A stretch of DNA of 64,000 nucleotides, from assembly GCF_009696465.1 (NCBI RefSeq), contig NZ_VULX01000002.1, positions 124,001-188,000 of the forward strand, read 5' to 3'. A model generated the notes under the pieces. The model was given only the letters and a program-made list of their open reading frames with translations. It was not told where the DNA came from and ran no database searches. Positions 4,250 through 15,796 of this stretch are shown here, one piece after another. The position numbers and the translations under genes were made by a program. Source of the stretch: Inconstantimicrobium porci (GTDB lineage: Bacteria > Bacillota > Clostridia > Clostridiales > Clostridiaceae). How positions within the stretch are numbered: the first letter of the stretch is position 1; each line of letters starts with the position of its first letter.

Positions 4250-4290
4250 CAAAAAAGCTCCCGCTTATAAAAGCGGAAGCTTTTTCATTA
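4250..4290 (-). terminator. Rho-independent terminator downstream of ptsI
   Basis: On the minus strand AAAAAGCTTCCGCTT, a short loop and AAGCGGGAGCTTTTTT form a stable stem followed by T residues. It lies about 115 bp after the ptsI stop. The stem is nearly symmetrical, so it could also stop transcription from the other side. Confidence 0.85.
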
Positions 4291-4406: not shown

Positions 4407-6023
4407 TTAGTTTTCCATTATAAGCTTCTTAGCGTTTAATATTGATGTTGCACTCATTGAGAATTCATCTAATCCGTATTCTACAAGAGTTGGTATAGCA
4501 GTTTCGTCTCCTGCCATTTCTCCACACATTCCACACCATTTTCCTTGTGAATGAGCTCCATCTATAGTCATCTTTATTAATCTTAATACAGCTGGATGCA
4601 TTGGGTTGTATAGGTAAGATACCTTTTCACTCATTCTATCTGCAGCTAATGTGTATTGGATTAAATCGTTAGTTCCGATTGAGAAGAAGTCAACATGCTT
4701 AGCAAGTTCATCAGCCATAACTGCTGCTGCTGGAATTTCAACCATGATACCCCATTGGATAGTATCTGAGAATTTCTTTCCTTCTGCAGTTAATTCTGCC
4801 TTACATTCTTCTACTACAGCTTTAGCCTGTTCAAATTCCTGTATTCCAGAAATCATTGGGAACATTACTCTTAAATCTCCATAAACTGAAGCTCTAAGTA
4901 AAGCTCTTAATTGAACCTTGAATATTTCTTTTCTATCTAAGCAAAGTCTGATTGCTCTGTATCCTAAGAATGGGTTCATTTCTTGTGGTAATGGTAAGTA
5001 TGGAAGAGTCTTATCTCCACCGATATCTAAAGTTCTTATAACAACTGGTCCGCTGATTTTTTCAAGAACGTGCTTGTATGCTTCATACTGTTCTTCTTCT
5101 GTTGGCGCCTGATCTCTGTCCATGTATAAGAATTCAGTTCTGAATAGACCTATACCGTCTCCACCGTTAGCTATAACCTGATCAACGTCAGAAGCCTTAC
5201 CGATATTTCCGCAAACTTCTACTCTCTTACCTGCTTTAGTTACAGTTTTAACTTCGATAAGTTTCTTTAATTCTTCTTGTTCTGCCTGGAATTTAGCTTT
5301 TTTAGCTTCGTATTCAGCAATAACTTCTTCTGATGGGTTGATTATAACATCACCAGTTAAACCATCAACAATTATCTTGTCTCCATTTTTAACACATTCA
5401 GTTATATCTCCAAGACCAAGTACAGCTGGAATTTCAAGAGTTCTAGCCATGATAGCTGCATGTGAAGTTCTTCCACCTATGTTAGTTATGAATCCTGAAA
5501 CCTTAGTTCTATCAAGTTGTGCTGTATCTGATGGAGTTAAATCGTGAGCAACTACTACTGTGTTTTCTTCAGTGATTGCGAAATCATCTCCACCTCTTCC
5601 TGCAAGGTTAGAGATTATTCTCTTAGAAACGTCCTTTATGTCAGCTGCTCTTTCTCTCATGTAGGCATCTTCCATAGATTCGAAGATCATTACAAATGTA
5701 TTAGTAACATTTTCAACTGCCTTCATAGCGTTGATTGAATTGTTTTCTATTTCTAAAGACATAGCTCCAGTGAATTCTGGGTCATCTAATAATGTGATGT
5801 GTGCTTCAAAAACTGCTGCCTTATCTGCTCCCATTGATTCTTCAGCTTTAGCCTTTACAGCTTCTAATTGCGTATGAGATGCTTTTAATGCCGCATCTAA
5901 TTTAGCCTTTTCAGCTTCTATGTCATTAACTTTAGCGTCTGTTATTACTATTTCTTCGTGAGCCTTTATAAATACTTTTCCAATAGCATATCCTTTTGAT
6001 GCTGCTATACCTTTTTTATTCAT
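4407..6023 (-). CDS. ptsI: Phosphoenolpyruvate-protein phosphotransferase (PTS enzyme I)
   Basis: Enzyme I transfers phosphate from phosphoenolpyruvate to HPr and so feeds all PTS sugar uptake. The 538 residues contain the phospho-accepting His at about 188 in GGRTSHAAIMARTLEIPAVL. The PEP-binding barrel follows (GLFRTEFLYMDR near 290, SIGTNDLIQYTLAADR near 450) and the catalytic Cys lies in WCGMCGEMAGD near 500. It is slightly shorter than the E. coli protein (575) but complete. The ATG has an AAGGAGG-like site (ctaaggaggaatttt). It is transcribed alone: a terminator follows, and upstream is the divergent HPr-PAS-sigma-54 activator. Its promoter carries a clear -24/-12 element, so expression is probably sigma-54 dependent, unlike the usual ptsHI arrangement. 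No ptsH is in the window. Confidence 0.97.
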   Translation of the reverse strand: MNKKGIAASKGYAIGKVFIKAHEEIVITDAKVNDIEAEKAKLDAALKASHTQLEAVKAKAEESMGADKAAVFEAHITLLDDPEFTGAMSLEIENNSINAMKAVENVTNTFVMIFESMEDAYMRERAADIKDVSKRIISNLAGRGGDDFAITEENTVVVAHDLTPSDTAQLDRTKVSGFITNIGGRTSHAAIMARTLEIPAVLGLGDITECVKNGDKIIVDGLTGDVIINPSEEVIAEYEAKKAKFQAEQEELKKLIEVKTVTKAGKRVEVCGNIGKASDVDQVIANGGDGIGLFRTEFLYMDRDQAPTEEEQYEAYKHVLEKISGPVVIRTLDIGGDKTLPYLPLPQEMNPFLGYRAIRLCLDRKEIFKVQLRALLRASVYGDLRVMFPMISGIQEFEQAKAVVEECKAELTAEGKKFSDTIQWGIMVEIPAAAVMADELAKHVDFFSIGTNDLIQYTLAADRMSEKVSYLYNPMHPAVLRLIKMTIDGAHSQGKWCGMCGEMAGDETAIPTLVEYGLDEFSMSATSILNAKKLIMEN

Positions 6024-6068
6024 CTAAAATTCCTCCTTAGATTTAAAATATCCTTTTACTATTATACA

Positions 6069-6084
6069 AGCAAATACCATGCCA
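6069..6084 (-). promoter_or_regulatory. Sigma-54 (-24/-12) promoter of ptsI
   Basis: On the minus strand TGGCATGGTATTTGCT matches the sigma-54 consensus TGGCAC-N5-TTGCW at every key base, with the invariant GG and GC dinucleotides at the required spacing. It is oriented toward ptsI and places the transcription start near 6058, about 35 bp before the ptsI ATG. A divergent sigma-54 activator gene begins 270 bp away. Confidence 0.85.
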
Positions 6085-6212
6085 AATTTTAAAAAATAAT
6101 TTATTTTTTATTACATTTATGTATTTTATCATATTTGCACACAACTTTCCATGATTTTATTATTACTTTATATATAATGTATTATGCATATAAATGCTTC
6201 TTTATAAAATTG

Positions 6213-6338
6213 TTGATAAATTTTATCAACTATTTTATAAAGAATTATATATTTTTACCCCTAACCCATGATATAATGTTCTTAAGTAAAACATGATAAA
6301 AAATATCAACATATTTTATTTTTGATACTTTTTATCAA
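6213..6338. promoter_or_regulatory. Three TTGATA-N5-TATCAA palindromes, candidate activator sites
   Basis: Palindromes of the form TTGATA-N5-TATCAA occur at 6213-6229 (perfect), 6293-6309 (one mismatch, ATGATA) and 6322-6338 (perfect). They lie between ptsI and the divergent regulator. The first is about 155 bp upstream of the predicted ptsI start site, a normal distance for a sigma-54 enhancer. The last ends right at the regulator's ribosome binding site and would suit autoregulation. A Fis-type HTH dimer would be expected to bind such a dyad. Confidence 0.7.
6269..6277 (+). promoter_or_regulatory. Extended -10 promoter of the sigma-54 activator gene
   Basis: TGATATAAT is an extended -10 (TG-N-TATAAT) on the plus strand, with no good -35. 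It predicts a start near 6284, so the palindromes at 6293 and 6322 would lie in the 5' untranslated region. Confidence 0.5.
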
Positions 6339-6352
6339 AAAGGAGAATTATT

Positions 6353-8377
6353 ATGATAACTCAAGAAATAAAAATTCTTGCAACTAATGGCATTCACACA
6401 AGAATAGCTGCAATGATAGTCAATAAAGTTGCCCAAATTTCAAATAAATCACATGTTCAGCTGTACATAAAAAAGGTAGGCCTTAAAGACTGGCTGGGAA
6501 TAAGCATGCTAGCACTTGTTTCTTTAAAAATAAAATGTAACGAATCAATAATAATTGGTGCCAAAAAATCTGGAGACGAAACAATAGAAGCACTAAATGA
6601 ATTAAAATTATACATAGAAACAGTAATTAACAAAAGCGACAACGCCACTACTTCAATGAATAGCATTGATAAATTTATAGAGGAAAGTGCAATCGTTACT
6701 GACCAGATTATAAGCGAATCTCCAATAGGTATAATAGTTATTGATTTAAATTCTAACATTATAAATATTAATAATTACGCTTCAAACATCCTTAATATTA
6801 ACGGAAAAGAATGCATAGGAAAAGATATTTACAAAATACTTCCACATTCGGAACTTCCTAAAATACTTACATCAAAAGATAAAGAACTTGGTAAGATTCT
6901 TTATCTTGGTAACAAGACATGTACAATAAATAGAAGCCCTCTTCTTTCCCACGATAAAATTATAGGAGCTGTTGCTGTATTCCAGGATGTCTCAGAACTT
7001 GTAGGTGTAAAAGAAGTTAATGAAAAGTTGCAAAAGATACTTGCTTCTTCACATGACTTGATCTGTTTTGTTGATAATACAGGTGTAATAAATTACTGCA
7101 ACCCTGCATACAAACAATGTTTTTCTTCTGCAGATTCCGAAATAGGCAAAAATATTTTTGATATGCCTTCACACAATATAATTATTCAGTGCTTTAAGGA
7201 TAAAAAGAAAATTGAAAATGTGCTCCAAACTAAAGACGGTATTGATGTTATGACTACAGCTGAGCCCATTTTTATTGATAATAAATTTAACGGGGTTATC
7301 TCAACATCTAAACCTGTAAATGAACTTAAAGAATTAATGAGCAAACTTCAGAAGTCTCAGGAAGAACTTGATTATTACAAAGATGAACTTATGAAACACA
7401 CTTCGCTTAAAGGATCATTTAAAAATATCATAGGTGTAAGCAAGGCTATGCACAATATTTTATTTATGTGTGAAAAAGCCTCAAGAACAACTTCTACTGT
7501 GCTTATACAAGGAGAAAGTGGTACAGGAAAAGAACTTATTGCAAGTGCCATCCATAACAACAGTCCAAGAAAAGGCAAACCTTTTATAAGAGTAAACTGT
7601 GCAGCAATTCCTGAAAATCTGCTTGAAAGCGAACTTTTTGGTTACAAAAAAGGGGCTTTTACAGGCGCATTAAAGCATAAACCAGGTAAATTCCAGCTAG
7701 CAGATGGCGGTACAATCTTCTTGGATGAAATAGGTGATATGCCTCTTTCTATGCAGGCAAAACTTTTAAGAGTCCTTCAGGAAAAAGAAATAGATAGTCT
7801 TGGTGGTTTAAAACCTCAAAAAATAGATATTAGAGTAATTGCAGCAACAAATAGAATCCTTCCTGAAATGATTGAAAATGGCACATTCAGAGAAGATTTA
7901 TATTACAGACTTAATGTTGTGTCAATAAGCCTACCATCGCTAAAAGACAGAAAAGAAGATATTCCTATTCTTGTTGAACACTTTATAAGCAAAATAAACG
8001 AATCTCTTCACACTACAGTTACAGGAATAGATCAAAATGTACTTCCCATGCTTTGTAACTATTCATGGCCAGGAAACATTAGAGAGCTTGAGAACATCAT
8101 CGAAAGAGCCATTAATCTTTGTGATGGGCACATACTTACAGCAAGAGATTTTCCTTCATACATATGTTCTAAAACTCATACAGCTATTACAAACCAGTCA
8201 CAAAACTTAATAAATGTATATAATGATGAGCTCCTGCCATTTGAAGAGTACGAAAAGCAGATAATTGAACTTGCCATGAAAAAATATAAATCATACAACA
8301 AAGCTGGAAAAGCACTTGGTCTTACTCATAGAACAATATCACTTAAGTGCCAGAAATACGGAATAGATAAGCAATAA
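6353..8377 (+). CDS. Sigma-54-dependent activator with N-terminal HPr-like domain and PAS domains
   Basis: 674 residues. Residues 1-90 align along HPr: the sequence NGIHTRIAA places His at 15 and Arg at 17, exactly as in HPr, and Lys45 is followed by Asp46 where HPr has the regulatory Ser46. Two PAS-like domains follow (about 110-215 and 225-330). The AAA+ domain has Walker A GESGTGKE at 387-394, the sigma-54 loop GAFTGA at 434-439 and Walker B FLDE ending at 459. A Fis-type helix-turn-helix ends the protein (about 638-672). The ATG follows AAGGAG. The domain order suggests it senses PTS phosphorylation or a ligand and switches on the -24/-12 promoter of the divergent ptsI. This is inference from layout; related HPr-bearing or PRD-bearing activators such as LevR are known. 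Confidence 0.9.
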   Translation: MITQEIKILATNGIHTRIAAMIVNKVAQISNKSHVQLYIKKVGLKDWLGISMLALVSLKIKCNESIIIGAKKSGDETIEALNELKLYIETVINKSDNATTSMNSIDKFIEESAIVTDQIISESPIGIIVIDLNSNIININNYASNILNINGKECIGKDIYKILPHSELPKILTSKDKELGKILYLGNKTCTINRSPLLSHDKIIGAVAVFQDVSELVGVKEVNEKLQKILASSHDLICFVDNTGVINYCNPAYKQCFSSADSEIGKNIFDMPSHNIIIQCFKDKKKIENVLQTKDGIDVMTTAEPIFIDNKFNGVISTSKPVNELKELMSKLQKSQEELDYYKDELMKHTSLKGSFKNIIGVSKAMHNILFMCEKASRTTSTVLIQGESGTGKELIASAIHNNSPRKGKPFIRVNCAAIPENLLESELFGYKKGAFTGALKHKPGKFQLADGGTIFLDEIGDMPLSMQAKLLRVLQEKEIDSLGGLKPQKIDIRVIAATNRILPEMIENGTFREDLYYRLNVVSISLPSLKDRKEDIPILVEHFISKINESLHTTVTGIDQNVLPMLCNYSWPGNIRELENIIERAINLCDGHILTARDFPSYICSKTHTAITNQSQNLINVYNDELLPFEEYEKQIIELAMKKYKSYNKAGKALGLTHRTISLKCQKYGIDKQ

Positions 8378-13950: not shown

Positions 13951-15796
13951 AGAAATTTTTATTTAAATATATGAAAACTTTAAACATGTCTCCTTCAATA
14001 TCAACTTTCATTCTTCCACAATGTAGTTCTACTATAGATTTTGCAATAGCCATGCCAAGTCCTGAACCTTCTATTTTTGAAGTTCTTGCTTTATCTCCTC
14101 TTGCAAATCTTTCGAATACCTCATCAGAAGTAAAATTCATTTCATAACATGATACATTTTTAAATGAAATGATTATGTTAGTTAGATTCTCACTAATATC
14201 AATATATATTCTTGTATCCTTCATGGCATATTTATATGCATTAATAATTAGGTTTTCAAAGACTCTCGACATCTTTTCGCCATCAATATTCATATGTAGC
14301 CTTTCAAATTTAGAAGTAACTTTAACCTCCAAATTCTTTTCACTGTACAAAGTTGATGATTCTCCCACACACTGATTCAAAAGTTCCACAAGATCAAGTG
14401 AAACCTTATTTAGATGAATCTTGCCTGATGATAATTTTGATACTTCAAAAAGATCAAAAATAAGATTCTTAAGCCTAGTAGTCTTTCTGTCTAGTATATC
14501 AAGATATTGTTTTCTCTCATCATCAGTAATCTTACGAGTCTTAAGTATATTTACATAATTAATTATGCTTGTTAGTGGTGTCTTAAGATCATGAGATACA
14601 TTTGTAATCAGTTCAGTCTTCAAACGTTCACTTTTTAAGCTTTCATTTAAAGCCCTGTCATAACCTTCATTTATATTCTTAAGTTTATTGTAAATTCTCT
14701 TGTATCCGAATCCAGTTCTTCTTTTGAATCTTTCAAAATCTCCACTTTCAATATCATCTATGGCTGTTTCTACATTTATAATAACGATATTATAAATCAG
14801 CACAATTATAGATGAAGCTATAAGTATATCAATGAATGATGATTGAACTGAAAAAACAGCTTTTAATAATATTAGAATAATTATTACAGCGATATTTGTA
14901 TTAAAAATCACCGCATATCTTTTCTGATACTTATATAGCTGTATGTAAAGATTGCACACATAGAAACATTTATCTATAACATAATCCTGTCTAAGCTGCC
15001 CTGCTACTCCTTTAATCCCAAACTTAAATAAACTAAATATAAACTTACTCAATATACAAATTAAGCATACAGTTACACCTACTAAAATAATTATTTCAGA
15101 TGTAAGCTGACTCTTTTTAATAAGCAGTACACTACCCTTATTCTTTTCTTTAAACATTATTGCTTTGTAATCAGGATTATCCAGCTTTACTGTTCTACAA
15201 TAAAAATTGTCATCGATACTGTTCATATTATTTAGGATAGCAATCTTCTGACTATCAAGCTGTCTTGTAAAAGTTAAAATATGATACTGTTCATCAGTCA
15301 TATTTCCATTTGCAAATGCTCTCTGATTTTCTGACTCTATAATCGGGAAATAATTTCTACATATCTTTGAAAGCACACCATTTTCATTTGAAACAATTAT
15401 GTTATCTCTCTTATCTATTATAAGTATACCTGGCATTTCTTTGTATGAATTCTGTAGCCCATTAATAAGCTTAATCTTATTTAAAGGCTTGGAAAGATCA
15501 TTTACATCATCAAGTACTGATTTAACAGAAATCTCTCCCTTATCAAACTGTTCAGATGCTTTTTTATAATTAATATTTTCCTGCATACCTTCTATCTCTT
15601 CATAAGATGATACAGCTAACTTTTGGAATAATTCATATTTATTAATTTTTAAATCTTTCTGTGCACTGACAAGAATACCGTCTACTCTCTGCATTACCCA
15701 TGTAAATGCCCATATGGTAAATATAAGTGCTATTACGTCTAATAAAGTAATTTTTGAAAATATTCTTATCTTACTTGTCGATTTTGTATCCAACAC
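13949..15796 (-). CDS. Sensor histidine kinase, membrane-bound
   Basis: 615 residues. The start is a GTG inside the end of the response regulator gene (26-bp overlap), with a weak GGTGG upstream; a TTG one codon later is possible. A hydrophobic segment at about 18-37 is followed by an extracytoplasmic region of about 180 residues. Hydrophobic segments near 225-250 and 285-345 precede the kinase core. The H-box is NVSHDLKTPLTSIINYV (His near 400), followed by N-box NLIINAYKYAM and the G-box GSGLGMAIAKSIVELHCG. This is the HisKA/HATPase type that pairs with OmpR-family regulators. The signal is unknown. Translationally coupled to the regulator gene. Confidence 0.92.
   Translation of the reverse strand: MLDTKSTSKIRIFSKITLLDVIALIFTIWAFTWVMQRVDGILVSAQKDLKINKYELFQKLAVSSYEEIEGMQENINYKKASEQFDKGEISVKSVLDDVNDLSKPLNKIKLINGLQNSYKEMPGILIIDKRDNIIVSNENGVLSKICRNYFPIIESENQRAFANGNMTDEQYHILTFTRQLDSQKIAILNNMNSIDDNFYCRTVKLDNPDYKAIMFKEKNKGSVLLIKKSQLTSEIIILVGVTVCLICILSKFIFSLFKFGIKGVAGQLRQDYVIDKCFYVCNLYIQLYKYQKRYAVIFNTNIAVIIILILLKAVFSVQSSFIDILIASSIIVLIYNIVIINVETAIDDIESGDFERFKRRTGFGYKRIYNKLKNINEGYDRALNESLKSERLKTELITNVSHDLKTPLTSIINYVNILKTRKITDDERKQYLDILDRKTTRLKNLIFDLFEVSKLSSGKIHLNKVSLDLVELLNQCVGESSTLYSEKNLEVKVTSKFERLHMNIDGEKMSRVFENLIINAYKYAMKDTRIYIDISENLTNIIISFKNVSCYEMNFTSDEVFERFARGDKARTSKIEGSGLGMAIAKSIVELHCGRMKVDIEGDMFKVFIYLNKNF

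Follow-up and report, generated by a model that had tools for sequence, protein, structure and literature searches.

How is the supply of the general phosphotransferase enzyme set in Inconstantimicrobium porci? Every PTS sugar and much of carbon regulation in Firmicutes draw on enzyme I, which is generally regarded as near-constitutive. In the window (the whole stretch of 64,000 nucleotides analyzed here), ptsI encodes a 538 amino acid long enzyme I with the PEP-utilisers N, mobile and C domains of Pfam (4407-6023, minus strand). A gap of 329 bp (6024-6352) separates it from a divergent gene on the plus strand (6353-8377) that encodes a predicted sigma-54 activator. Our best explanation is that ptsI is under a sigma-54 switch dedicated to it; we give this reading, taken as a whole, a probability of roughly 0.85. 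The unit under study includes ptsI and the activator gene, and thus reaches beyond positions 6069-6352, to which the initial annotation referred.

The gap contains two kinds of elements. A -24/-12 element, TGGCATGGTATTTGCT (6069-6084, minus strand), faces ptsI 45 nt 5' of its ATG. It is a perfect match to TGGCA-N6-TTGCW, which bears out the GG and GC spacing described initially. Three copies of a dyad with the consensus TTGATA-N5-TATCAA lie farther upstream: TTGATAAATTTTATCAA (dyad 1, 6213-6229), the ptsI-proximal candidate activator site and the counterpart of a conserved third site in relatives; ATGATAAAAAATATCAA (dyad 2, 6293-6309); and TTGATACTTTTTATCAA (dyad 3, 6322-6338), which forms an activator-proximal pair with dyad 2 and stands beside the ribosome binding site of the activator gene, at a gene-relative position that is conserved. 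They have 0, 1 and 0 mismatches, respectively, the same two perfect copies and one imperfect copy as first reported, and no further dyad with 0-1 mismatch is found elsewhere across the 64 kb window. Three dyads were seen in none of 20,000 dinucleotide shuffles of the gap and two dyads in one, while a perfect -24/-12 facing ptsI arose in five of 20,000. No sigma-70-type match near ptsI rises above the shuffle background; an additional minor sigma-A promoter may serve ptsI, and we count this against our best explanation. The terminator-like hairpin 3' of ptsI (4250-4287, minus strand; 17-pair stem with a T-rich tail) suggests that the predicted transcript is monocistronic. A second perfect TGGCA-N6-TTGCA is present in the window at 14042-14057, within a sensor-kinase-like ORF, and is probably due to chance.

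The divergent gene had been described as encoding a sigma-54 AAA+ activator, and Pfam agrees. Its product (674 amino acids) has the domain order HPr-PAS-PAS-AAA+-HTH: an HPr domain (residues 3-89, at 6359-6619; PF00381, 6e-10), a first PAS domain (residues 117-212, at 6701-6988; PF00989), a second PAS domain (about residues 231-316, at 7043-7300; PAS_4/PAS_10 matches), the sigma-54 AAA+ domain with the motifs GESGTGKE and GAFTGA (residues 359-525, at 7427-7927; PF00158, 3e-73), a lid region, and a C-terminal helix-turn-helix (residues 631-671, at 8243-8365; HTH_50, 5e-10), all on the plus strand. The hallmarks that predict a sigma-54 enhancer-binding protein (Walker A, GAFTGA and the C-terminal HTH) are all present. 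The layout of sensor, AAA+ domain and HTH is like that of E. coli DhaR and other PAS-containing sigma-54 activators, which, however, have no HPr domain and act on a different target. The LevR/CelR/MptR-type activators are likewise sigma-54 activators linked to the PTS, but those proteins contain PRDs and each control one sugar operon, whereas the I. porci protein has an HPr domain and the general enzyme as its putative target. Since Pfam finds no PRD match in it, the activator is not of the LevR type.

Are the other components of such a switch present in the genome? The initial annotation hinged on rpoN, and the 3.2 Mb assembly has a single rpoN gene. ptsI is the only enzyme I gene (a single PF05524 match), and the HPr-domain proteins are two, the free HPr and the activator. 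Other PF00158 matches score at most 50 bits, lack GAFTGA and are Lon/Clp/RarA-like by sequence, and the divergent protein is the sole convincing candidate for a sigma-54 activator found in the genome. The genome has 29 matches to TGGCA-N6-TTGCW and 57 to the dyad (within one mismatch); among the places listed, the two coincide nowhere but at ptsI. With a single activator and no second place of this kind listed, rpoN may be devoted mainly or exclusively to ptsI. A perfect dyad, TTGATAATGATTATCAA at L011:1501-1517 (G000:C13:4582-4598), resembles a Fur/PerR box, not a site of the activator.

If the dyads belong to the activator, they should be found together in relatives. A search across the family detects full-length orthologs of the activator in about 64 of 207 genomes (identity about 50-73%), in addition to shortened relatives, and two genomes of a second family also have orthologs. 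We compared 64 loci, 62 with full-length and two with short activators. The activator gene is divergent from ptsI in 63 of them. L099 alone is not; it is an additional copy in genome G111, whose other copy adjoins ptsI. This second copy falls in the ptsI clade, has TTGATAATTTTTGTCAA dyads and a -24/-12 downstream, and probably serves another operon. Three dyads (with at most two mismatches) are present in 61 of the 62 orthologous gaps and a -24/-12 in 60 of 62, and the two activator-proximal dyads are spaced 28-33 bp apart (mode 31, approximately three helical turns) in 59 of the 61 relatives with three dyads. Neither dyads nor a -24/-12 were found at the 23 ptsI upstream regions of genomes without the activator. 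The dyads are thus conserved in orthologous gaps, as the first reading would have it, and the elements are missing from ptsI where there is no activator. When the 207 genomes were scanned with a strict tandem-dyad pattern, 34 gave a match (reversed control: zero): in 32 the match is in the activator gap, in one it is upstream of ptsH (G122) and in one it is in an unrelated place (G016). In one further relative (G177, L181:301-2302), the activator gene is split into three frames beside an intact ptsI and the -12 is degenerate (ATGC), reflecting either decay or sequencing errors.

The same comparison bears on whether the dyads might be those of a different regulator, such as a Fur/PerR-type repressor with a box like TGATAATNATTATCA. 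The arms are alike, and 20 of 180 sites are one mismatch from that box. However, the other 160 are two or three mismatches away, and the cores are A-tracts and not ATNAT. The sites are moreover tied to the activator gene, keep their spacing of approximately 31 bp and are missing at ptsI without the activator, and the dhaK-linked paralog of the activator (see below) has a matching variant site. We consider this assignment very improbable. Control of ptsI from a sigma-54 promoter by the divergent activator, by comparison, would appear highly probable.

A pair of relatives links the activator to its promoter from another direction. In sister genomes G101 and G102, the activators (L107 and L106) have lost GAFTGA and carry ELFGVEKNxNGNNNALLGKF in its place, while Walker A, His15, the HPr residues and the dyads are retained. 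The two gaps without a -24/-12 are exactly those of G101 and G102, where TATGCTATAATG or TGTGCTATAATG, a sigma-A-like extended -10, replaces it. Because these are sister genomes, we count them as one event. The joint loss of GAFTGA and of the -24/-12 ties the sigma-54 contact loop to the ptsI promoter.

We also scanned 84 HPr-type genes for dyads and -24/-12 elements. The elements precede an unlinked ptsH in G122 and G113 (in G122 the -24/-12 is between the dyads and ptsH), and they precede ptsH-ptsI operons in G211, G212 and G089. In G089 (L187:289-6319), the rpoN gene itself lies between the activator gene and the ptsH-ptsI operon. A weak dyad pair in G176 has a poor -24/-12 and was regarded as chance. 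Judged by these sequence comparisons, evolution has kept the activator and the three dyads together with the -24/-12 of ptsI, and in some relatives with that of ptsH.

Is the activator a known one? HPr domains have been described among clostridial sigma-54 activators by Nie et al. (2019; PMC6615313), and Table 1 of that paper gives dhaKLM and ptsI as the predicted targets of DhaQ. Sigma-54 control of ptsI is thus already predicted in print, as a single table entry on which the main text does not expand. In the open-licence literature we came across no account of a branch dedicated to ptsI, of a co-regulated ptsH or of the HPr residues, and the passages retrieved on C. ljungdahlii and C. autoethanogenum transcription yielded nothing on ptsI. 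The activator might simply be DhaQ, acting on dhaKLM and ptsI together, and the paralog found directly upstream of dhaK in relatives (42-44% identical; L149-L166; L109-L114) has the same HPr-PAS-PAS-AAA+-HTH order, together with a sigma-54 promoter and dyads with an N5 core. However, the I. porci genome has no dhaK (no Dak1 gene was found in it), and the I. porci activator is divergent from ptsI. In a quick tree, the ptsI-type and dhaK-type activators form separate supported clades, and the dhaK paralog sites consist of a -24/-12 with variant dyads such as TTGGTA-N5-TATCAA and TTGATA-N5-TACCAA, that is, TTGGTA-type half-sites against TTGATA at ptsI. This pattern suggests that the predicted HTH and its site changed as a pair between the two types. 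Two of the 23 genomes without the activator (G110 and G025) have the dhaK-type paralog and yet lack the elements at ptsI, so the paralog is not controlling ptsI there. On this evidence it is unlikely that the activator is DhaQ itself. Because dhaK is preceded by a paralog with 43% identity and a variant site, the I. porci protein looks like a member of a separate, ptsI-dedicated branch, apart from the dhaK type. An uncultured Eubacterium assembly (L218:2110-8693) has, one after another, an rpoN-like gene, a gene for an HPr-activator, a dha-like operon, an HPr gene and a gene resembling that of enzyme I, as read from translations only.

What does the activator sense? The HPr-like domain proposed in the initial annotation is well founded, with a Pfam match, an HPr fold and invariant phosphorylatable residues. 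The first 100 residues are modelled with a pLDDT of 93, and their best PDB matches are all HPr or Crh, with which the domain shares its fold and the positions of His15, Arg17 and Ser46 (Ser51 in the activator). The three residues are invariant in 64 of 64 orthologs, and the Ser46 equivalent is located where helix B begins in the predicted model. An apparent Asp (a phosphomimic) at HPr position 46 came from an ungapped reading and was rejected; gapped and PDB profile alignments and the model all give an invariant Ser. Compared with HPr and Crh, the domain is fused to a transcription activator, Pro18 is always replaced (by Ile, Val, Phe, Tyr or Leu), and the loop before the Ser46 equivalent is lengthened by an insertion. 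With these last two changes, exchange with enzyme I could be altered, a point against our best explanation. We think it probable that the predicted HPr domain is a sensor of PTS phosphate.

The dedicated switch might work as follows. By analogy with established sigma-54 biology, activator dimers on the dyads would build an AAA+ ring, the DNA would loop, GAFTGA would contact sigma-54, and ATP hydrolysis would open the ptsI promoter. Phosphorylated enzyme I (EI~P) would phosphorylate the HPr domain at His15, and the activator would thereby read the PTS phosphate pool. When sugar uptake drains phosphate, the HPr domain would be unphosphorylated and the activator would work, leading to more enzyme I; when EI~P accumulates, the domain would become phosphorylated and activity would fall. 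PAS ligands and HPr kinase acting on Ser51 are possible extra inputs. We prefer a negative sign for this feedback because enzyme supply then matches phosphate drain, but hold it at even odds. The same wiring with the opposite sign, in which phosphorylation of His15 activates and ptsI is self-reinforcing, being on when EI~P is plentiful, seems rather unlikely. In its favor are the invariance of His15 and Arg17 and the example of PRD activators such as LevR, which HPr-dependent phosphorylation can stimulate; against it, more enzyme would be made when the demand for phosphate flux is low.

A different possibility is that the HPr domain serves merely for docking or sequestration and that PAS ligands set the activity, so that ptsI would follow a metabolite or redox signal. 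Two PAS domains are present in most orthologs, and most clostridial activators appear to be ligand-sensing according to Nie et al. (2019; PMC6615313). Yet one branch that is minus one PAS domain keeps the HPr domain and the linkage to ptsI, and the invariant His15, Arg17 and Ser46 equivalent would be left unexplained. The short orthologs gave the first impression of having lost HPr; they retain it, and one PAS domain is missing instead. We regard the docking role as improbable, although sensing could fall mainly to the PAS domains, which we count against our best explanation of a phosphate-sensing switch.

The activator gene may also be subject to its own product. A candidate extended -10 of this gene (TGA-TATAAT, 6269-6277, plus strand) precedes dyads 2 and 3, which would then occupy positions of about +10 to +55 in the transcript. 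As the pair is just downstream of the candidate promoter, its occupancy should repress the activator gene, so binding of the activator-proximal pair would have a second effect besides its role at ptsI; the chances for and against such autorepression appear equal. In several of the nearest relatives, a TGN-TATAAT also stands 5-16 bp before the dyad pair; as a candidate activator promoter it was not found family-wide. The initial annotation had dyad 3 touching the ribosome binding site. It actually ends 1-2 nt before AAGGAG, so that the two adjoin without overlap.

Under the dedicated switch, enzyme I would hang on an activator-gated promoter that needs ATP hydrolysis to fire, and mutation of rpoN or of the activator gene should simultaneously abolish or lower the use of every PTS sugar. 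With an activator fused to HPr, point mutants would offer a direct test of how enzyme I is matched to phosphate flux. Dozens of relatives share the wiring, and the system seems to be common across the family. A wider picture, to which we give slightly less than an even chance, is closed-loop control of the general PTS in much of the family, in which enzyme I phosphorylates the HPr domain of the protein that activates ptsI, sigma-54 has been retained in the I. porci genome mainly or only for this purpose, and one lineage has rewired the output from sigma-54 to a sigma-A-type promoter while keeping the sensor and the dyads. Farther along the window, from about 30000 to 64000, there is a long series of ORFs, mostly on the minus strand, the last of 1188 amino acids, which is possibly a prophage or another mobile element.
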